NCBI GenBank assembly: GCA_017481825.1 | Contig: JAFUOR010000006.1 | Span: 1-46,135 of the forward strand | Direction of reading: 5' to 3' | Source of the DNA: Clostridia bacterium | GTDB taxonomy: Bacteria > Bacillota > Clostridia > Christensenellales > Aristaeellaceae | DNA length: 46,135 nucleotides | In this document: piece by piece, positions 8,807 to 26,363 of the stretch | How positions within the stretch are numbered: position 1 is the stretch's first letter | Layout: the number at the start of each line of letters is the position of its first letter | The notes under the pieces: model-generated | Databases searched by the model: none | What the model was told of the DNA's origin: nothing | The model's input: the letters and a program-made list of their open reading frames with translations, nothing else | Program-made: the position numbers and the translations under genes

Positions 8807-9664
8807 ATGAAGATCATGGTCACAGGTGCCCGGGGATTGCTGGGGCAGGAGGTCATTCGCGCGCTACTGGAGCGGGGACATGCCTGTCTGGGCGTGTCCT
8901 CGGCAGACTTTGACCTGTGCGACGCAGCAGCCACGCGCCGGGCCGTATCAGACTGGCAGCCGGAGGCGATCATCCATTGCGCGGGCTACACGGCTGTGGA
9001 CCGGGCGGAAAGCGAGCCTGCCCGCTGCATGGTCGTCAACAGCCTGGGAACACTGAATCTCGTCCGCGCGGCATTGAGGGCAGACGCCAAGCTTCTCTAT
9101 GTCTCCACCGACTACGTTTTCGACGGCAGCGGCGATGCGCCCCGGGAAACCGGCGCGCCCACCGGCCCGCTGAATGTCTACGGTCTGTCCAAGCTCCAGG
9201 GCGAGGAGACCGTCCGCGCCCTGATGACGAAATTCTTCATCCTGCGCACCTCCTGGATGTTCGGTATGGGCGGCGGCAATTTTGTCCGCACGATGCTGTG
9301 CCTTGGCAGCGAACGACCTCGGGTGAATGTGGTGTGCGACCAGTTCGGCGCACCCACCTATGCGCCTGACCTGGCGCAGCTGATATGCCAGATCATCGAA
9401 AGCAGCCGCTACGGCGTCTACCACGGCACGAACGAGGGCTGCTGCTCCTTCGCGGAATTCGCCAATGCCATCATGCAGCAGGGCGGACGCCGATGCCAGG
9501 TGACGCCTATTCCCTCATCCGCCTATCCCTGCGCTGCCCGGCGGCCGCTCAACAGCAGGCTGAGCAAAAGGAGCCTCGATCTGGCAGGCTTCCGACGGCT
9601 GCCTCCCTGGGAGGACGCGCTGGCACGCTATCTGACCGAACTGAAAAACCACAACAAGCTGTGA
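8807..9664 (+). CDS. dTDP-4-dehydrorhamnose reductase-like (RmlD substrate-binding) SDR
   Basis: A 285-residue extended short-chain dehydrogenase. The Rossmann motif is MVTGARGLLGQEV, the substrate region has CAGYTAVDRAE (typical of RmlD), then STDYVFDG, and the catalytic YGLSK. RmlD reduces dTDP-4-dehydro-L-rhamnose with NAD(P)H, the last step to dTDP-rhamnose. Length and motifs match full-length RmlD. No other rml genes (rmlA, rmlB, rmlC) are nearby, so the sugar may differ or the pathway may be scattered. It is a single gene with its own promoter and a strong terminator; GAGAGGTG precedes the ATG. Confidence 0.88.
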   Translation: MKIMVTGARGLLGQEVIRALLERGHACLGVSSADFDLCDAAATRRAVSDWQPEAIIHCAGYTAVDRAESEPARCMVVNSLGTLNLVRAALRADAKLLYVSTDYVFDGSGDAPRETGAPTGPLNVYGLSKLQGEETVRALMTKFFILRTSWMFGMGGGNFVRTMLCLGSERPRVNVVCDQFGAPTYAPDLAQLICQIIESSRYGVYHGTNEGCCSFAEFANAIMQQGGRRCQVTPIPSSAYPCAARRPLNSRLSKRSLDLAGFRRLPPWEDALARYLTELKNHNKL

Positions 9665-9670
9665 ACCATG

Positions 9671-9706
9671 ACGGATTCCCGAATTCTTTGGGGAATCCGT
9701 TTTTTC
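9671..9706 (+). terminator. Intrinsic terminator of the RmlD-like gene
   Basis: Ten-bp perfect stem ACGGATTCCC/GGGAATCCGT followed by six T's. Confidence 0.9.
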
Positions 9707-9849
9707 GTTCTGTCGAAAATTTTCGGCCCTGTGCGTCGCGGCCTCCATGACGGCCAGATGACACAAATCAATCACCTCGAACATACACGAACATGGATGT
9801 TTATGCATTTATGCAGCATTCATACGCAGGATACAATGCGAAAAAATGA

Positions 9850-10044
9850 TTGTCCACAGGGCTATCCACACAAATCGCCAATGTGGACGAATCCTGTGGA
9901 TAACTTGTGGACAATGGGGATAACTCTGCACACACCCGCGATTTTCCGTGGTTTTTGCCTGTTGAAATTGTGGATAACCCTGTGGACACTGTGGATGAAT
10001 AGGTTCTTTGGCTGTGCATAACCAGTTTTTACAATTGTGAATAA
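9850..10044. other. Cluster of eleven DnaA-box-like 9-mers (candidate oriC or DnaA reservoir)
   Basis: Two perfect DnaA boxes (TGTGGATAA, the complement of TTATCCACA) lie at 9895-9903 and 9969-9977. One-mismatch boxes are at 9850 (TTGTCCACA), 9862 (CTATCCACA), 9906, 9915, 9990, 10013 and 10036. Two-mismatch boxes are at 9882 and 9981. The first two are on the plus strand and the rest point the other way. There is no credible gene from 9665 to 10200. The AT-richer flanks (around 9705-9725 and 10021-10150) could supply an unwinding element, but none is proven. No dnaA, dnaN or parAB is in view. mnmG, often near origins, is 12 kb away. Confidence 0.7.
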
Positions 10045-10200
10045 GCATACCTGCACAGCCTGCCCGCAGCCCAAAAGCCGTAAAAAACGGCATTTTCCGC
10101 TTCGCATTCGTTATGCATATATGTGTATACAGATGTTCTCTATCGTCAGTTGTAATTGCGCTGCCGCGCGCATAGGCTTTGCCAAACGGAGGTGTATCCT

Positions 10201-10995
10201 ATGGCAGACAAGCATCGTCCCATCGTGCCGCCGCACAAGGCAGAACGCTACCTGACCCTCGCCGTAGGGCTGCTGGTGCTCATCGGCGGCCTGTTAGCGG
10301 TTGCCGCATGGCGCAAGGAAGCCACATCCCCCGCGCCCCACACTCATGAGACGCCCGCTCCGACCCTCACGCCCGCCCCCATCGGCCCGCTTTCTGGCCT
10401 GACCATTCTGGTGGATCCTGGCCACGGTGGCTATGACGGCGGCGCGCGCTGCCGTGACTCCGGCATCTGGGAGAAGCATCTCAACCTCGCCGTTGCCCTG
10501 GAGGTTGAAAAAAGCCTCGTCCAGCGCGGCGCATCGGTCATCATGACCCGCCGCACGGACGAGGACTTATGTGAGGAAGACCGCCCTGCCGCCCTCACCA
10601 AGAAGCGCCAGGACATGCAGAACCGCGTCGCCATGGCGGTAGACGGGAATGCCCACATGGTGCTGTCCATCCATATGAACGAATACCGCAGCCGGGCTGA
10701 ATCCGGGCCCCAGGTATTCTACCGCGAGGGCAGCTCCGCCTCCCGCCTCCTTGCCGGATGCATACAGAGTTCCCTCATCAGCGGCCTCTCCCCCAGGAAG
10801 GAGCGCGTCGCCATGGCCGGCGACTACTTCATCCTGCAGCTGGAGGTACCTTCGGTCCTGATCGAATGCGGCTTCATCTCCAACGCCGCAGAGGAAAAGC
10901 TGCTGCTCTCCCATGACTATCAGGCGCGCCTGGGCGAAGCCATCGCTGGCGGCGTGGAGGAGTACCTACGCCTCGATGCCATTGGCGCGCAGTGA
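10201..10995 (+). CDS. cwlD: N-acetylmuramoyl-L-alanine amidase, CwlD-like
   Basis: A 264-residue membrane-anchored peptidoglycan amidase. A single N-terminal helix (LTLAVGLLVLIGGLLAVAAW) is followed by a Pro/Thr-rich linker and an Amidase_3 domain. The zinc-site motifs are LVDPGHGGYDGGA (His), the Glu in IWEKHLNLAVA, and LSIHMNE (second His); the catalytic Glu is in VLIECGFISN. It cleaves between muramic acid and the stem peptide. CwlD makes muramic-delta-lactam in the spore cortex, and the size and single anchor fit; a vegetative amidase is possible. Start 10201 follows CGGAGG. The 3' end overlaps convergent rluD by 30 bases. It begins 156 bases after the DnaA-box cluster. Confidence 0.85.
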   Translation: MADKHRPIVPPHKAERYLTLAVGLLVLIGGLLAVAAWRKEATSPAPHTHETPAPTLTPAPIGPLSGLTILVDPGHGGYDGGARCRDSGIWEKHLNLAVALEVEKSLVQRGASVIMTRRTDEDLCEEDRPAALTKKRQDMQNRVAMAVDGNAHMVLSIHMNEYRSRAESGPQVFYREGSSASRLLAGCIQSSLISGLSPRKERVAMAGDYFILQLEVPSVLIECGFISNAAEEKLLLSHDYQARLGEAIAGGVEEYLRLDAIGAQ

Positions 10996-14305: not shown

Positions 14306-16849
14306 TTACTCCGCTGCCGGAGCCGTCACGCCCTTGGGAAGGATGATCACCGGGAAGGAGGCCTTCACCGCCGGGTTATCCTCGCTGGCGGCGGTAACCA
14401 CCACCAGCTGGGGCTCCGTTACTTCCTTGGCGTACACCACGCCATTGCTGACCGTAGCAATATCGCTGGAGCAGTTGATCGACCAGGTGAGGCGCTTGTT
14501 CGTCGCGTCCGAGGGTGCGATGGTATAGCGCAGGCGCAGGCTGCGGCCTGCGGTGACGCTGCTGCTGCCCGCCAGGGTGATGCTCTCAATAGGCTTCACC
14601 ACGCGCACGGTGAAGCTGGCGTAGCGTCCGGAGCCGTCATTGGCCTTGGCGGTAATCACTGCGGTACCGACCTTCTTACCTGTTACCAGGCCGTTGCCGT
14701 TGACCGTCGCCACACTGGAGCGGCTGGAGGACCAGCTCACGCCCTGTCCCGCCGTGTCAGGCGTGCAGGTGGCATAGAGCTGCAGCGTCGGGGCAGCGCT
14801 GGTGATATCGATCCAGCTCTGCTTGGCGCTGATGGTGATGCGGCCCACGGCCGGACGGATGGTCACCACATGGGTCGCCGTCAGGGAGGGATCCTCCTTG
14901 CTGGCGGCGGTGACAGTCACCTGTGTGGGCTCCGTCACCTTCTTGGCGGTCAGCCGTCCGCTGCTGGAGATGGTTGCCACCGTCGAGGGGCAATCCACCG
15001 ACCAGGTCACGCTCTTGTTCGAGGCATTGTCGGGGGTCACGGTGGCCGTCAGCTTGATGTTGCGGCCCGCCGCCAGCTCCGTGGCACCGGTGATGGAAAT
15101 GCCCTTGACGGCATTGACAATCTTGATGGTGATCTTCGCGCTGCGGCCGGAGCCGTCCGTCGCCTTAGCGGTAATGGTCACCGTGCCGGTACTCTTGGCG
15201 GTTACCAGACCGTTGTCATCCACCGTAGCACGGCTGCTGCTGGAGGACCACTTCACCTGCTGGGAAGCATGCTCCGGCGCGCACACGGCGCTGAGCTGGA
15301 GGGTCTTGTCCTCCGAAGCAAAGTCAATGATGGTCTGAGGCGCGGTAATGGTGATCTTCTCCACTGCCGGGCAGATGGTCACCTGATGGGTATCGAAGAT
15401 GGCGGAATTCTCCTCGCTGACCGCCTTGACCGTCACGGTCACAGGCTCGGTGATTCCCTTCTTCGCCGTCAGCTTACCGGAGGAGCTGATGGTCGCGATG
15501 GACTTATCGCAGTCCACGGACCAGATCACATCGTCGTTGGAGGCATTGGCCGGCGTCACGCTGGCCTTGAGGGTGATGCTCTTGCCCGCCGCCACGCCAC
15601 TTGCACCGGTGATGGTCACGCCCTTGACGGCCTTGACGATCTTGATGGTGAATGTTGCCTTGCGGCCGGAGCCATCCGTCGCCTTGGCGGTGATGGTGAC
15701 CGTACCGGCACGCTTGGCGGTCACCAGACCATTCTCATCCACCGTGGCACGGCTGGAGGAGGAGGACCAGGTCACGCTCTGGGCTGCATCCTCCGGCGTG
15801 CAGGCAGCCGTCAGCTGCAGCGTCTTGTTCTCGGACTCGATATCGATAAAATTCTGCGGCGCGGAAATGGTGATCTTGCTCACCACCGGGCGGATGGTCA
15901 CGGTATGCGTGGCGATGATCGCCGGATTCTGCTTGGAAGCCGCCGTCACGGTCACCACCGTGATCGCGTCCACCTTCTTGGTGCGCAGCTTGCCGCTGCT
16001 GGAAATGGTGGCAATGCTGCTGTCGCAGTCCACGCTCCATGTCACACCCTTGACGGAGGCGTCCTCCGGGACAATGGCGGCCTTCAGGGTGATGGACTTG
16101 CCCGCTGCCACGCTGTCGGAACCGGTAATGGTCAGCCCCGTCACGCCCTTCACCACCTGCAGGGTGATCCGTGCGTACTTGCCGGAGCCGTCCGCCGCCT
16201 TGGCGGTAATGGTCACCTTGCCCGTCTTGTGGGCAGTCACCAGACCATTTTCGTCCACCGTGGCGATCTTGGTGCTGCCGGAGGACCAGTTGATGCCGTC
16301 CATAGCGTCCATGGGCTCGCAAGAGGCACTCAGCTGCAGCGTTCCCGTGCCGGATAGATCGATATAGGTGTCGGGTGCAGTGATGGATACCTTCGTAACC
16401 GAGGGTACGATGGTCAGGGCGAAGCTATCGTAAATCATGGGATTGGCCTTAAGCACCGCAGTGACCTGCACGCTCTGGGCATAGGAGACCTTCTTCGTGG
16501 TCACGGTGCCGCGGGAGATGCTCGCCAGAGACGTATCGTTGGGATACAGCGCCCAATCCACCTCACTGGAGGACAGCTTCACGCCGTCCAGGCTGGCCGT
16601 CAGCGTCACCTTGCCGCCGCCGCGCACGGTGCTGCTGCCGGCAATCACCATTTCGCCATCCACCGGGATTTCGGGCTCGTCTGGCTCATCAGGCGTATCC
16701 GGCACCGAGGGTAAATCCGTATCGGTGGTGATATCCGTCGGGGTACTGATATCCGTGGGGGTGATGACCTCGGCGCGGGCATCTGCCGGCAGCGCAGACA
16801 GCATCACCAGCGACAGGACCAGCAGAACCAGTTTTTTCAGCATGTTCAT
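14306..16849 (-). CDS. Secreted protein of tandem bacterial Ig-like (Big_2) domains
   Basis: An 847-residue exported protein: signal peptide (LVLLVLSLVMLSALPADARA), then an acidic Thr/Pro/Asp linker (residues 28-66), then ten or so Big_2 Ig-like domains of 80-90 residues. Four tandem pairs of about 170 residues repeat the same phrases: ATVDENGLVTAK, VTITAKATDGSGR, AAGKSITLKA, SVDCDKSIATISSSGKL. There is no LPXTG anchor, SLH domain or enzyme domain, so it may be released or bound non-covalently. Big_2 domains occur in adhesins and polysaccharide-binding proteins. It has its own promoter and GGAGG site. It resembles the 24318-26363 protein. Role unknown. Confidence 0.9.
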   Translation of the reverse strand: MNMLKKLVLLVLSLVMLSALPADARAEVITPTDISTPTDITTDTDLPSVPDTPDEPDEPEIPVDGEMVIAGSSTVRGGGKVTLTASLDGVKLSSSEVDWALYPNDTSLASISRGTVTTKKVSYAQSVQVTAVLKANPMIYDSFALTIVPSVTKVSITAPDTYIDLSGTGTLQLSASCEPMDAMDGINWSSGSTKIATVDENGLVTAHKTGKVTITAKAADGSGKYARITLQVVKGVTGLTITGSDSVAAGKSITLKAAIVPEDASVKGVTWSVDCDSSIATISSSGKLRTKKVDAITVVTVTAASKQNPAIIATHTVTIRPVVSKITISAPQNFIDIESENKTLQLTAACTPEDAAQSVTWSSSSSRATVDENGLVTAKRAGTVTITAKATDGSGRKATFTIKIVKAVKGVTITGASGVAAGKSITLKASVTPANASNDDVIWSVDCDKSIATISSSGKLTAKKGITEPVTVTVKAVSEENSAIFDTHQVTICPAVEKITITAPQTIIDFASEDKTLQLSAVCAPEHASQQVKWSSSSSRATVDDNGLVTAKSTGTVTITAKATDGSGRSAKITIKIVNAVKGISITGATELAAGRNIKLTATVTPDNASNKSVTWSVDCPSTVATISSSGRLTAKKVTEPTQVTVTAASKEDPSLTATHVVTIRPAVGRITISAKQSWIDITSAAPTLQLYATCTPDTAGQGVSWSSSRSSVATVNGNGLVTGKKVGTAVITAKANDGSGRYASFTVRVVKPIESITLAGSSSVTAGRSLRLRYTIAPSDATNKRLTWSINCSSDIATVSNGVVYAKEVTEPQLVVVTAASEDNPAVKASFPVIILPKGVTAPAAE

Positions 16850-21997: not shown

Positions 21998-23854
21998 TCA
22001 CGAAGCGCCGCATTTCTCCAGGTACACCATCAGCACCGCCACATCCGCCGGAGACACCCCCGGGATGCGGCTGGCAGCAGCAAGGCTGCGAGGTCGCTGA
22101 CGTTCGAGCTTCTGGCGGGCTTCCAGGCGCAGCCCGGTCACCTCGGAATAGGGCAGCGCCTCGGGCAGCAGCGTTTCCTCCATCGCCCGGGCGCGGCGGA
22201 TGAGCGCATCCTGCCGGTCAAGATAACCGGCGTACTTCACCGCAATCTGTCCCTGCTCGGCGGCCTGATGATCATAGACGCCCAAAGACGGCGTGATCTC
22301 CGCAAGGTCCTGCAGCGTGATCTCCGGACGGCGCAGCAGCTCCTCCGCGCTGACGGAGGCAGGCGGAACGGACTGACCATGCGCCTCCATCCATGCATTG
22401 AAATCTGCACCGGGGGTGTAGCGGATGTTGCGCAGCTCTCCCAGGAGCTGGGCGGTGTCGCGCTGTTTTTTTTCGGTGCGCTCCATGCGCTCCCGGGTGG
22501 CGAGGCCAAGGACGTAGCTGATTTGGGTCAATCGCAGATCGGCGTTGTCCTGACGCAGCTTCAGCCGATGCTCTGCGCGGGAGGTCATCATGCGGTAGGG
22601 CTCGTCGGTTCCCTTGGTGGTCAGATCGTCGGTCAGCACGCCGATGTAAGCCATGTCGCGGGTCAGAACGAGAGGCTCCTTCCCCTGCATGCCCAGGGCG
22701 GCGTTCATGCCCGCCAGCAGGCCCTGACAGGCGGCCTCCTCGTAGCCGCTGGTGCCGTTGATCTGCCCGGCGAAGAACAGGCCCTTCACATGGAGGCTCT
22801 CCAGCGATGGCTTCAATTGGCGGCTGTCAATGCAGTCGTACTCGATCGCATAGGCAAGGCGCGTCAGCTCACACCGGCGAAGCCCCGGCACGGAGCGGTA
22901 CATCGCCCACTGCACATCCTCCGGCAAGCTGGTAGACATGCCCTGCACATACCATTCATGGCTCTTGGCGCCCTCGGGCTCCAGGAAGACCTGATGGCGA
23001 TCCTTATCGGCAAACTTGACGATCTTATCCTCGATCGACGGGCAATACCGCGGGCCCACGCCGTGAATCTTGCCGGAATACAGCGGTGCACGGTGCAGAT
23101 TCGCGCGGATGATATCGTGGGTTTCAGGACTCGTCCAGGTCAGGTAGCACTGATGCGTGTTGATGAGCTGTCTCTGCGTCAGGAAGGAGAAGGGCACCAC
23201 CGGATCATCGCCGGGCTGGGGCGTCATCTCGTCAAAATCAATGGTGCGCACGTCAATGCGGGCGGGCGTGCCGGTCTTGAAGCGGCGCAGCGGAAAGCCG
23301 AGGCTTTCAAGGCTTGCCGACAGAAGCGGCGCACTCATCAGCCCCTGCGGGCCGCCGGGGGTGATGCTCTCCCCGATGATGATATTCGAGCGCAGATACA
23401 CGCCGCTGGCTACGATGGCCGCCCGGCAGGCGATGCGCTGTCCCGTGGCGGTATGCACAGCCACGACGCGCCCCTCCTCCACCTCAATGGAGGCGCATTC
23501 CCCCTGGCGCACCGTCAGGCGCTGCTGCGTAAAGAGCGCCCTGCGCATGCGGTTCTGATATTCCTGCTTGTCCGCCTGAGCGCGAAGGGCATGCACCGCC
23601 GGCCCCTTGGAGGTATTGAGCATACGGGACTGCAGGAAGGTATCATCAATCGCCAGACCCATTTCGCCGCCCAGCGCATCCAGTTCGCGCACCAGATGCC
23701 CCTTGGCGCTGCCGCCGATAACGGGATTGCACGCCATGAGGGCGATGCCATCCATATTCAGCGTCAGCAGCAGGGTATCCACGCCCAGCCGCGCCGCAGC
23801 AAGGGCGGCCTCGCAGCCTGCATGGCCGCCGCCGATAACAACAAGATCCGCCAT
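21998..23854 (-). CDS. mnmG: tRNA uridine 5-carboxymethylaminomethyl modification enzyme MnmG (GidA)
   Basis: A 618-residue FAD enzyme that with MnmE installs the cmnm5 group on wobble uridine of tRNAs. The FAD motif is VIGGGHAGCEAALAAARLG; CNPVIGGSAKGHLVRELDAL is a GidA signature, as is FAGQINGTSGYEEAACQG. The C-terminal helical domain ends in RIPGVSPADVAVLMVYLEK. The start at 23854 follows AAGGAGGGATGAGC; the ATG six bases earlier lies too close to the site. rsmG and mnmE are not adjacent, unlike the usual mnmE-mnmG-rsmG order near oriC. Confidence 0.97.
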   Translation of the reverse strand: MADLVVIGGGHAGCEAALAAARLGVDTLLLTLNMDGIALMACNPVIGGSAKGHLVRELDALGGEMGLAIDDTFLQSRMLNTSKGPAVHALRAQADKQEYQNRMRRALFTQQRLTVRQGECASIEVEEGRVVAVHTATGQRIACRAAIVASGVYLRSNIIIGESITPGGPQGLMSAPLLSASLESLGFPLRRFKTGTPARIDVRTIDFDEMTPQPGDDPVVPFSFLTQRQLINTHQCYLTWTSPETHDIIRANLHRAPLYSGKIHGVGPRYCPSIEDKIVKFADKDRHQVFLEPEGAKSHEWYVQGMSTSLPEDVQWAMYRSVPGLRRCELTRLAYAIEYDCIDSRQLKPSLESLHVKGLFFAGQINGTSGYEEAACQGLLAGMNAALGMQGKEPLVLTRDMAYIGVLTDDLTTKGTDEPYRMMTSRAEHRLKLRQDNADLRLTQISYVLGLATRERMERTEKKQRDTAQLLGELRNIRYTPGADFNAWMEAHGQSVPPASVSAEELLRRPEITLQDLAEITPSLGVYDHQAAEQGQIAVKYAGYLDRQDALIRRARAMEETLLPEALPYSEVTGLRLEARQKLERQRPRSLAAASRIPGVSPADVAVLMVYLEKCGAS

Positions 23855-23921
23855 GCTCATCCCTCCTTCAAAAATCATGACACAACAGATAATTATAGCA
23901 CATATTGATCTTCCTGCAAAG

Positions 23922-23957
23922 AAAAATCGCACGGCCGCCCGCAAAGGCAGCCGTGCG
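23922..23957 (-). terminator. Intrinsic terminator
   Basis: Stem CGCACGGC/GCCGTGCG with an inner GCC/GGC pair. On the minus strand ATTTTTCTTT follows. It ends the 113-residue gene just upstream of mnmG. Confidence 0.8.
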
Positions 23958-23963
23958 AAAGCT

Positions 23964-24305
23964 TCAAACTGTGTATCCGCTATGGATATCAAAGGGCATG
24001 ATGAGCAGCTTCATGATCTCCTTACCATAGCGGGCAAAGAGCCATGCGGTGGCCTGACCGCAGCTTTCAATGCTGTCAAACTCCAGGAAGCCATAATACT
24101 TCACACACTTGACGACCTTGGTCAGCATCCGCGGCGCCTCGCCCGCGTTCACATCATCAAAGATGTAGAAGCGCTTCATATACCGCGCCGAAATGCATCC
24201 GGGGAGCTTCTCCTGCGCCGCGCGGATATCTGCCATCAGCATCTCGAAAGCCTCCAGCTGGTCAGGTTTGACCTGAAACAGCAGCGTCTGTGCAAATGTG
24301 CTCAT
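23964..24305 (-). CDS. Hypothetical 113-residue protein, ABM-like fold possible
   Basis: A small soluble protein starting MSTFAQTLLFQVKPDQLEAF, with LMADIRAAQEKLPGCISARY and YYGFLEFDSIESCGQATAWL. The beta-alpha-beta pattern, with FQVKPDQLEAFE and the Leu-Pro-Gly-Cys turn, resembles dimeric alpha-beta barrel (antibiotic biosynthesis monooxygenase-like) proteins, but I cannot confirm it. It begins 12 bases after the second Ig-repeat gene stop on the same strand; its own terminator follows. Confidence 0.55.
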   Translation of the reverse strand: MSTFAQTLLFQVKPDQLEAFEMLMADIRAAQEKLPGCISARYMKRFYIFDDVNAGEAPRMLTKVVKCVKYYGFLEFDSIESCGQATAWLFARYGKEIMKLLIMPFDIHSGYTV

Positions 24306-24317
24306 ACATCCACCTCA

Positions 24318-26363
24318 TCAATATCCGTAGGCGTCGATCACCTTGACCTGCCAGGTGAATTCCTCCTGATTTTCCTCGCGGATGGAACGGCTGTAACCGT
24401 CTGCCGTGCGGTAGCCGGTGATGCGCATGACCACCTTGCCGATGCCATAGGGGCGGCTGAATTCACTGCCGAAGGAGAACTGGCCGTGCCTGGTCGCCTC
24501 GCCGGGCCCCAGCGTATAGTAGTAGCTGCCCTCGAAGGTGTTGGTGTGATTCTCGTCGTTGCAATCCAGCGGATTGCCCCAGGCATCGTAGACGTCGATC
24601 TCATAGTAGAAGCGGTCGATGGTCAGGTTGCTCTGGTTGTACACCACGATGCGGATATAATCGCTCTCCGCATAGAGGTTGGTGATCTTCAGCGCCTCGT
24701 CATAGTTGCCGACGGTCACCTTGAAGGTCGCCACATAGCCGCCGTCCTGGGTCACGCCGATAATGTTGGTTTCGCCCCATGCCTTGCCGGTCACGGTGGC
24801 CTTGTTCCTGCTGCCAGAGACAGTCGCGATGCGCTCATCCTCGCTGTACCAGGTCATGGCGGTGTTGGTGGCGCCGCTGGGCAGGAGCTCAGCCGTGTTG
24901 GTCACCTGACGGTCAACGCCCACGCTCACCTCGTCGTACTTCATCTCCACGCCTTCCACGGGCTGGGTGACGGTGACTTTGATGGTAGCCTTCTTGCCGG
25001 AGCCGTCGTTCGCCGTGGCATACACATACGCCTCGCCGCGCATGAGGCCGGTGACGCAGCCATCCTGGCTGACCAACAGCACATTTTCCTTGTTGGTGGA
25101 CAACGTTACGGAGGTATCCGTCGCCGTATCCGGCGTGACCTCCCAGCCCAGGTAGATGCTGCTGCCCACGCTGACCGTGGCGGACTTGTCGGTGAAGGCC
25201 ACCTTCGTCACAGGCTGATACACGCTGACGACGGCCTCGGCGCAGAGCTCAGGGAAATCCTCGCTCGCGCAGGTAATGATGGCCGTGCCGGGAGCCACTG
25301 CCGTCACGCGACCGCTGCTGTTGACCTTCGCCACGGAAGCGTCCGAGGACGTCCAGGTGACGGACTTGTTATTGGTGGTGCTGGGCAGCACGGTTGCCTT
25401 CAGGGTCTTGTAATTGCCAGCTTTCAGGGTGAAATCGTATTCATTCAGCTCGATGGATTCCGGCTGCTGCTTCACCGTCACGGTGAAGGTGCCATACTGG
25501 CCGGAGCCATCCGCCGCCTTGGCCGTGATGGTCGCGGTACCCTTGCTCACGCCAGTCACCACGCCATATTCATCTACGATGGCGTTCTTCTCGTTGCTGG
25601 AGGACCACACGACGTTCTGAATCGTGGCGTTATCGGGGGTGATGTTCGCCGTGAGCATGATATCCTCACCCACAAACATCGACTTTTCCTCGCCCGTCAC
25701 GCGCACCTTGGTCACCGGCTGCACCACCAGAACGTGGTATTGCACGCTGACCTCGGGGTTCTGGATGCTCTGCACCGTCACGATGCACTCGCCCACATCC
25801 TTGCCGGTCAGGGACGTACCGCTGGCCTTGACGATATCCGCATCCGAGGAGATCAGCTGCCACTTGCGGTTCGTCGCATCCTTGGGGCTCAGGGTTGCGC
25901 TGATGGTCGTGCTCTTGCCCTTGCGCAGCACCAGCACCGGCAGATCCGTAACCTCACTGAGCACCTCTGCTACCAGAGGATCATCCGCGCTGTACAGCGC
26001 CAGTTTGCTCTCGCTGACCTCAATGCCCGTCACAGCGCGCGCAACGGTCACGGTGAGCTTCGTCGTCCAGGTACGCTTGGCGCCCTTGAGCGTCGCTGTG
26101 ATTGTCGTCGTACCCTTGCTGAGGCCATATACCACGCCGTATTCATCTACCGTGGCAATCTTCTTGTTGGACGACGTGAAGGACAGCTCGCCATCATCAG
26201 CGCAGTCGCCCTCCCGCACAAGGATCAGCTGGGCACTCTCGCCCTCCATCACCGTGTTGACGGCCTTGTCAAAGTGGAACTTATTCTCCGCCAGCGCCGT
26301 GCCGGTCAGGCCGGCCGCCAGAAGCATGGCGATCATAAGCATCGTCAGCAGTCTCTTCATCAT
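24318..26363 (-). CDS. Secreted Ig-like (Big_2) repeat protein with C-terminal beta domain
   Basis: A 681-residue exported protein: signal peptide (MLMIAMLLAAGLTGTALA), then about six or seven Big_2 Ig-like domains (phrases ATVDEYGVVYGLSKG, IVDEYGVVTGVSKGTATITA, VTWTSSDASVAKVNSSGRV) and a C-terminal beta-rich domain from about residue 570 (LKITNLYAESDYIRIVVYNQ and ITGYRTADGYSRSIREENQ) that looks like a small ligand-binding or FxLYD/DUF5780-like domain. No anchor motif. It is a relative of the 14306-16849 protein but with more varied repeats. Own promoter and GGAGG. It may be cotranscribed with the 113-residue gene. Confidence 0.88.
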   Translation of the reverse strand: MMKRLLTMLMIAMLLAAGLTGTALAENKFHFDKAVNTVMEGESAQLILVREGDCADDGELSFTSSNKKIATVDEYGVVYGLSKGTTTITATLKGAKRTWTTKLTVTVARAVTGIEVSESKLALYSADDPLVAEVLSEVTDLPVLVLRKGKSTTISATLSPKDATNRKWQLISSDADIVKASGTSLTGKDVGECIVTVQSIQNPEVSVQYHVLVVQPVTKVRVTGEEKSMFVGEDIMLTANITPDNATIQNVVWSSSNEKNAIVDEYGVVTGVSKGTATITAKAADGSGQYGTFTVTVKQQPESIELNEYDFTLKAGNYKTLKATVLPSTTNNKSVTWTSSDASVAKVNSSGRVTAVAPGTAIITCASEDFPELCAEAVVSVYQPVTKVAFTDKSATVSVGSSIYLGWEVTPDTATDTSVTLSTNKENVLLVSQDGCVTGLMRGEAYVYATANDGSGKKATIKVTVTQPVEGVEMKYDEVSVGVDRQVTNTAELLPSGATNTAMTWYSEDERIATVSGSRNKATVTGKAWGETNIIGVTQDGGYVATFKVTVGNYDEALKITNLYAESDYIRIVVYNQSNLTIDRFYYEIDVYDAWGNPLDCNDENHTNTFEGSYYYTLGPGEATRHGQFSFGSEFSRPYGIGKVVMRITGYRTADGYSRSIREENQEEFTWQVKVIDAYGY

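Follow-up and report, generated by a model that had tools for sequence, protein, structure and literature searches.

Does a dense group of DnaA boxes lying between an rmlD-like gene and a spore cortex amidase gene mark a replication origin, or does it hold DnaA away from an origin located elsewhere? The question is raised by positions 9850–10044 of the window, by which we mean the whole stretch of 46,135 nucleotides that was analysed. The window is contig C42 of genome G000 (3.16 Mb in 163 contigs; completeness 91, contamination 5.4), the nearest named relatives of which are 'Clostridia/Clostridiales' MAGs, many of them from ruminant guts, and the DnaA protein of this genome contains the Bac_DnaA_C DNA-binding domain. 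The original prediction offered two readings of the locus, an unusual oriC and a DnaA reservoir, and was supported in part: the first reading was not supported by the analysis and the second was strengthened by it.

Architecture of the DnaA-box cluster

A scan of the window recovered exactly the eleven 9-mers that had been claimed, all within two mismatches of TTATCCACA: two boxes are exact (starting at 9895 and 9969), seven carry one mismatch (9850, 9862, 9906, 9915, 9990, 10013 and 10036) and two carry two mismatches (9882 and 9981). Most boxes also share a direction, as had been proposed, with the plus strand reading TGTGGATAA-like in nine of the eleven and the remaining two facing the opposite way. 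Six of the eleven form two head-to-tail triplets on the minus strand. Triplet A (9895–9923) comprises the boxes at 9895, 9906 and 9915, with offsets of 0/11/20, and triplet B (9969–9998) comprises those at 9969, 9981 (the latter with two mismatches) and 9990, with offsets of 0/12/21. They are separated by a spacer (9924–9968) that places the last box of A and the first box of B 54 bp apart, start to start, and this distance is 52–54 bp in genus members retaining both triplets. The outer boxes are less well conserved: identity across the genus is 0.64 and 0.72 for the two in the TTATCCACA sense on the plus strand (9850–9858 and 9862–9870), and 0.63 and 0.52 for two weak boxes on the minus strand (starting at 10013 and 10036, spanning 10013–10044).

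The density of boxes had been called very unlikely by chance, and comparison with shuffled sequence agrees, since none of the controls came near it. First-order Markov resamples of the 9850–10044 stretch (n = 2000) contained on average 0.09 and at most two boxes with up to one mismatch, against nine observed, and none of the 2000 reached nine. When 200 permuted 9-mers were scored on the same stretch, each was found at most once, and the densest other 195-bp stretch of the window holds two boxes (scan step 15). Across the whole window there are 17 sites with at most one mismatch where 5.2 are expected, a number that none of 100 shuffles equalled. The boxes are clustered well above chance, as in clusters of the B. 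subtilis type, and an artefact of chance or base composition is contradicted by the shuffles, by the permuted words and by the conservation of the boxes described below; we regard its probability as practically negligible.

The cluster lies downstream of the rmlD-like gene (9029–9664, plus strand; ORF open from 8771), at the 3' side of which a terminator-like hairpin can be seen by eye at about 9673–9705, and upstream of cwlD (10201–10995, plus strand), which matches the TIGR02883 family with an E value of 1.2e-54; its score of 185 bits falls short of the curated threshold, 221.55. With this reservation for cwlD, the gene names originally given (rmlD, cwlD and mnmG) are correct. The statement that no gene occupies 9707–10200 holds in that the codon model calls none there and fails in that open frames do cross 9665–10200. 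Two short elements lie between the cluster and cwlD, both read from the alignment: TGTATACA at 10124–10131, which is kept in many of 12 aligned loci and in several relatives is preceded by a TGTATGCA-like partner, and GCATAGGCT at 10170–10178 on the plus strand, also kept in many aligned loci, which we take to be a possible -10 element of a sporulation-type cwlD promoter.

Association with cwlD and separation from it

The cwlD gene was found in 17 of 18 genus genomes (loci L120–L136), and in 11 of these 17 the 800 bp preceding the gene contain 5–10 boxes per 250 bp; no box cluster was found in that interval in the other six (G004, G006, G009, G012, G014 and G015). The 30 best named relatives partly coincide with the genus set (nine are the same contigs); 29 of them have at least three boxes per 250 bp upstream of cwlD, and 60 shuffles of each such locus never gave more than two. 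Of 50 more distant cwlD loci three were dropped as too short, and at least three boxes were found in two of the 47 that were scored. The conservation is concentrated in the boxes themselves: aligning 11 genus members gives an identity of 0.80 for box columns and 0.49 for spacers. When the box mask was shifted circularly, none of 380 placements reached the observed 0.80 (the best gave 0.78). Triplet B has identical first and third boxes in all 11.

The spacing between boxes is equally regular. Across 2.04 Mb of contigs, a set that is drawn mostly from the window's genus and so is not independent, same-strand spacings peak at 9, 11–12, 21, 31–34, 43–44 and 52–55 bp, about one helical turn apart, with as many as 30 pairs in a bin where about 0.05 would be expected. 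Opposite-strand pairs in the same contigs reach at most eight per bin and form no comparable series. A search for triplet B allowing two mismatches matched 12 of the 18 genomes of the genus. Six of these have a single matching place and six have two; in five of the latter, the second place is on the dnaN contig. The reversed control pattern gave no match in any of the 18. In four low-GC MAG loci (L097, L100, L109 and L119), 5–6 boxes are packed into about 75 bp, 0.4–3.4 kb upstream of cwlD; this compact cluster, which in L097 and L109 lies not far from a parB-like gene (named by eye), possibly marks an origin in such genomes.

A tree of DnaA groups G004, G006, G009 and G012 and places G014 with G008 (G015 was left out). 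Because G014 is split from the other four, the genus members without a cluster at cwlD probably reflect at least two separate changes. A CwlD tree was discarded, as 7 of its 22 sequences were missing and the branches of G007 and G012 were implausibly long. As for the gene neighbourhood, mnmG (21998–23992) is 11 kb from cwlD in the window and adjoins it in G004, G006, G009, G012 and G015, which are the cluster-less relatives except G014; in the window it is flanked by two proteins with 5–6 Big_2 immunoglobulin-like domains (14306–16849 and 24318–26363).

Absent from cwlD in G014, a cluster with the same spacing is found in this genome at C25:19130–19331, between converging kinase-like and threonine-aldolase-like genes (named by eye), and is 72% identical to the window cluster over 136 bp (E = 2.6e-7). 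Of the six genus members without a cluster at cwlD, this is the one in which a displaced cluster was found: when the G014 cluster DNA was compared with the genus, the other five gave only weak matches, the best of which (G015, E = 6.8e-4) is a cluster linked to a DUF1292-like gene. This other conserved cluster lies at L034:8533–8799 in the window's genome (G000:C62:25532–25798) and also at L307, L308 and L310; a low-molecular-weight phosphatase-like gene stands alongside it in G000 and G001 (both neighbours named by eye), and its distance from dnaN in G008 is 45 kb.

These observations bear on whether the boxes regulate the transcription of cwlD, and with it sporulation, for which the activation of sda by DnaA in B. 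subtilis provides a model. Such a role would fit the position of the cluster, which in many genomes is no more than about 550 bp upstream of the cwlD match, its persistence beside cwlD in relatives where the gene upstream of it varies, and the conserved possible promoter between the two. Against it, the G014 cluster persists away from cwlD, and its position between converging genes argues against a cwlD promoter element; six genus members have cwlD with no cluster, as do 45 of the 47 distant cwlD loci, and in the phylum sample described below the cluster follows tsaD. We consider regulation of cwlD quite improbable.

Position of the replication origin

As predicted, dnaA is located away from the cluster: it lies on contig C161 (L033, 3137–4480), and dnaN lies on a third contig, C77 (L035–L036, 20232–21335). 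The two genes are on different contigs in all 15 same-family genomes in which both were found (17 searched), some of these contigs being long (in G008, dnaA is at 396 kb on a contig of 548 kb and dnaN at 117 kb on one of 130 kb), whereas they are adjacent in all seven genomes of other families, from which we conclude that dnaA left dnaN in the window's family. The dnaA gene retains three boxes upstream, while dnaN retains a recF-like gene (identified by eye), an addA-like gene and several box clusters. Contig C77 has 41 boxes in its first 40 kb, the dnaN contigs carry several clusters, and one cluster lies within the addA-like coding sequence itself (L035:15944–16046 on G000:C77, and likewise in G008, G016, G017 and G007).

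With dnaA and dnaN separated in all 15 genomes, the origin could in principle lie anywhere, and the window cluster might be the chromosomal origin, or a second one, of such a family; its boxes are dense, and its 0/12/21 triplet is common to a cluster on the dnaN contig. Plain GC skew, which the original prediction had proposed as a check, proved too weak and noisy in the window and its relatives for an origin call, and gene strand bias was too weak to use; in G008 the plain skew does fall away at the cluster, from about -0.04 to 0, which would speak for an origin. Plain skew was replaced by skew at fourfold sites, comparing plus- with minus-strand genes within 40 kb on each side, with intervals from a gene bootstrap and genes called by a simple and crude codon model.

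The fourfold skew does not reverse in the sense of an origin at the cwlD cluster in any of five genomes. Its sign is unchanged from upstream to downstream in G016 (-0.18/-0.23), G007 (-0.10/-0.19), G010 (+0.28/+0.29) and G008 (-0.19/-0.03), and the change in G000 (+0.07/-0.15) runs opposite to that of an origin, its left interval (8 genes) spanning zero; one interval also spans zero in G016, G007 and G008, and neither does in G010. The displaced cluster of G014 likewise displays no reversal (-0.20/-0.19). At dnaN, the skew reverses with both intervals clear of zero in G000 (-0.33/+0.40) and G007 (-0.27/+0.52), changes in the origin sense in G016 (-0.11/+0.21) and does so weakly in G006 (-0.15/+0.03); there is no reversal at three of the seven dnaN sites (G008, -0.04/-0.03; G012, -0.19/-0.12; G024, +0.02/-0.24, with five genes on one side).

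The origin is most likely at dnaN. The putative oriC of the genus on the dnaN contig, which has the 0/12/21 triplet in common with the window cluster, combines a skew reversal (in some genomes) with several clusters within about 10 kb, and the window site has neither. Other families keep dnaA and dnaN together and some of them still have the cluster at tsaD or cwlD; in addition, the AT content at the cluster is 50–55%, with no AT-rich stretch standing out. That the cluster is an origin of either kind is therefore very improbable, and the 'unusual oriC' part of the prediction is not supported: the reversal sits at dnaN on C77 and in a relative, not at the cluster. The window cluster is probably not oriC and, judged indirectly from skew, resembles the clusters of B. 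subtilis in this respect too.

Link to tsaD and relation to known DnaA-binding loci

An exact triplet search across 297 genomes of the order, made independently of any gene, found 21 matches distributed over 17 genomes, and the reversed control pattern gave none in the same 297. Ten matches, spread over four families, are close upstream of cwlD, two are the cluster on the dnaN contig, and nine lie elsewhere, two of these near a recF-like gene and one near a tsaD-like gene (by eye). The order tsaD, boxes, cwlD is found at L058, L060, L066, L142, L144 and L148, and more loosely at L351; at L143, L146 and L147, tsaD is near cwlD and there is no cluster.

A phylum-wide sample of tsaD comprised 61 genomes, of which 60 were scored after a partial gene (G362) was dropped. 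At least three boxes per 250 bp were found within 800 bp downstream of tsaD in 40 of the 60, including the doubtful L372, L398 and L399 and two loci of the same genus and layout (L384 and L385), and at least four in 32; L391 has only 459 bp downstream of the gene. None of 1200 Markov resamples reached the threshold. Among 29 loci with both flanks, the cluster is downstream of tsaD in 21 and never upstream or inside the gene, and 108 of 121 downstream boxes share one orientation. In a tally of boxes with at most two mismatches, which took 41 of the 60 tsaD loci as input, the 32 clusters resolved in detail contained a 0/9/21 triplet in 18 cases and 0/12/21 in 12; the layout differs in that 0/9/21 is commoner at tsaD than the 0/11/20 and 0/12/21 of the window. 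The remaining 20 genomes, the window's among them, have no downstream cluster: the tsaD gene of G000 is on C48 with no boxes nearby, so that the window cluster is not just downstream of tsaD. In G008, looked at separately from the phylum sample, no boxes occur at 97.0–101.5 kb around tsaD. Judged from these sequences, a tsaD-linked cluster is present in many families of the phylum.

Because several loci join tsaD, the cluster and cwlD, this synteny ties the window cluster to the one at the 3' side of tsaD (gcp), and we consider it likely that the former is a displaced ortholog of the latter, which would bind DnaA and restrain initiation. Ancestrally, members of this order of bacteria probably carried tsaD, the cluster and cwlD in that sequence; tsaD would then have departed in the genus of the window, with the cluster remaining beside cwlD. 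The conserved box positions, the persistence apart from cwlD and the tsaD synteny favour the predicted reservoir, by analogy with the clusters of B. subtilis. B. subtilis DnaA-box clusters outside oriC were reportedly described by Okumura et al. in 2012, and gcp is the older name of tsaD.

In PMC4447404 the fourth-ranked DnaA-binding region of B. subtilis, with 10 sites, is placed downstream of gcp and ydiF, with a Kd of 0.15 µM for ATP-DnaA and 0.33 for ADP-DnaA, and 16-fold more of its DNA was recovered with ATP- than with ADP-DnaA. Like the window cluster it lies outside oriC and has about ten boxes, its place downstream of gcp being the presumed ancestral arrangement; its high affinity for DnaA is presumed for the window cluster as well. 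Unlike it, the window cluster is displaced from tsaD, attached to cwlD and has an explicit double-triplet spacing, and the likeness is drawn from the gene neighbourhood given in PMC4447404 rather than from sequence letters. In our literature search this was the only paper joining DnaA, gcp and ydiF, and none joined a DnaA box with tsaD or cwlD; the conservation may have been noticed earlier. As to function, two papers report that deletion of six B. subtilis clusters leads to early initiation (PMC5295017, PMC13220808); the first of these, a review, also denies the clusters any significant part in initiation.

By analogy we infer DnaA binding, a preference for ATP-DnaA and an effect on timing for the displaced ortholog in the window. 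Two phased head-to-tail triplets on one face of the helix would allow cooperative assembly of DnaA, probably in its ATP form, and the cluster would thereby draw DnaA away from oriC; once the fork had duplicated it, more DnaA would be bound and the next initiation delayed.

A datA- or DARS-like site would go beyond mere binding and alter the nucleotide state of DnaA. E. coli datA, to which the window cluster may be likened, is a multi-box locus outside oriC that lowers the available ATP-DnaA, with five boxes and a requirement for IHF where the window cluster has 11 boxes. DARS1 and DARS2 have a core of three boxes (PMC4585315) with conserved spacing, as in the window triplets; their known activity is the reactivation of ADP-DnaA, with IHF and Fis required at DARS2. 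That two three-box modules are held at a fixed spacing is suggestive of a structured complex, and the ATP-DnaA preference of the B. subtilis gcp site (PMC4447404) points the same way. B. subtilis, however, lacks an IHF homologue, and no regulator that switches DnaA between its ATP and ADP forms is known in it (PMC13220808); we think such an activity unlikely.

More broadly, and tentatively, a structured two-triplet element may have been kept at the 3' side of tsaD since before the families of the phylum, probably including that of B. subtilis, diverged, as a Gram-positive counterpart of datA and DARS that sets the ATP state or the free amount of DnaA and, being independent of its neighbours, can be displaced. 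A function of its own is argued for by the occurrence of the cluster at one locus in 40 of 60 genomes, mostly in one orientation, with recurrent spacing and separable from its neighbours. Work on DnaA-box clusters outside oriC covers few bacteria, and what such clusters do in Gram-positives is disputed; the tsaD-linked clusters supply many presumably orthologous sites.
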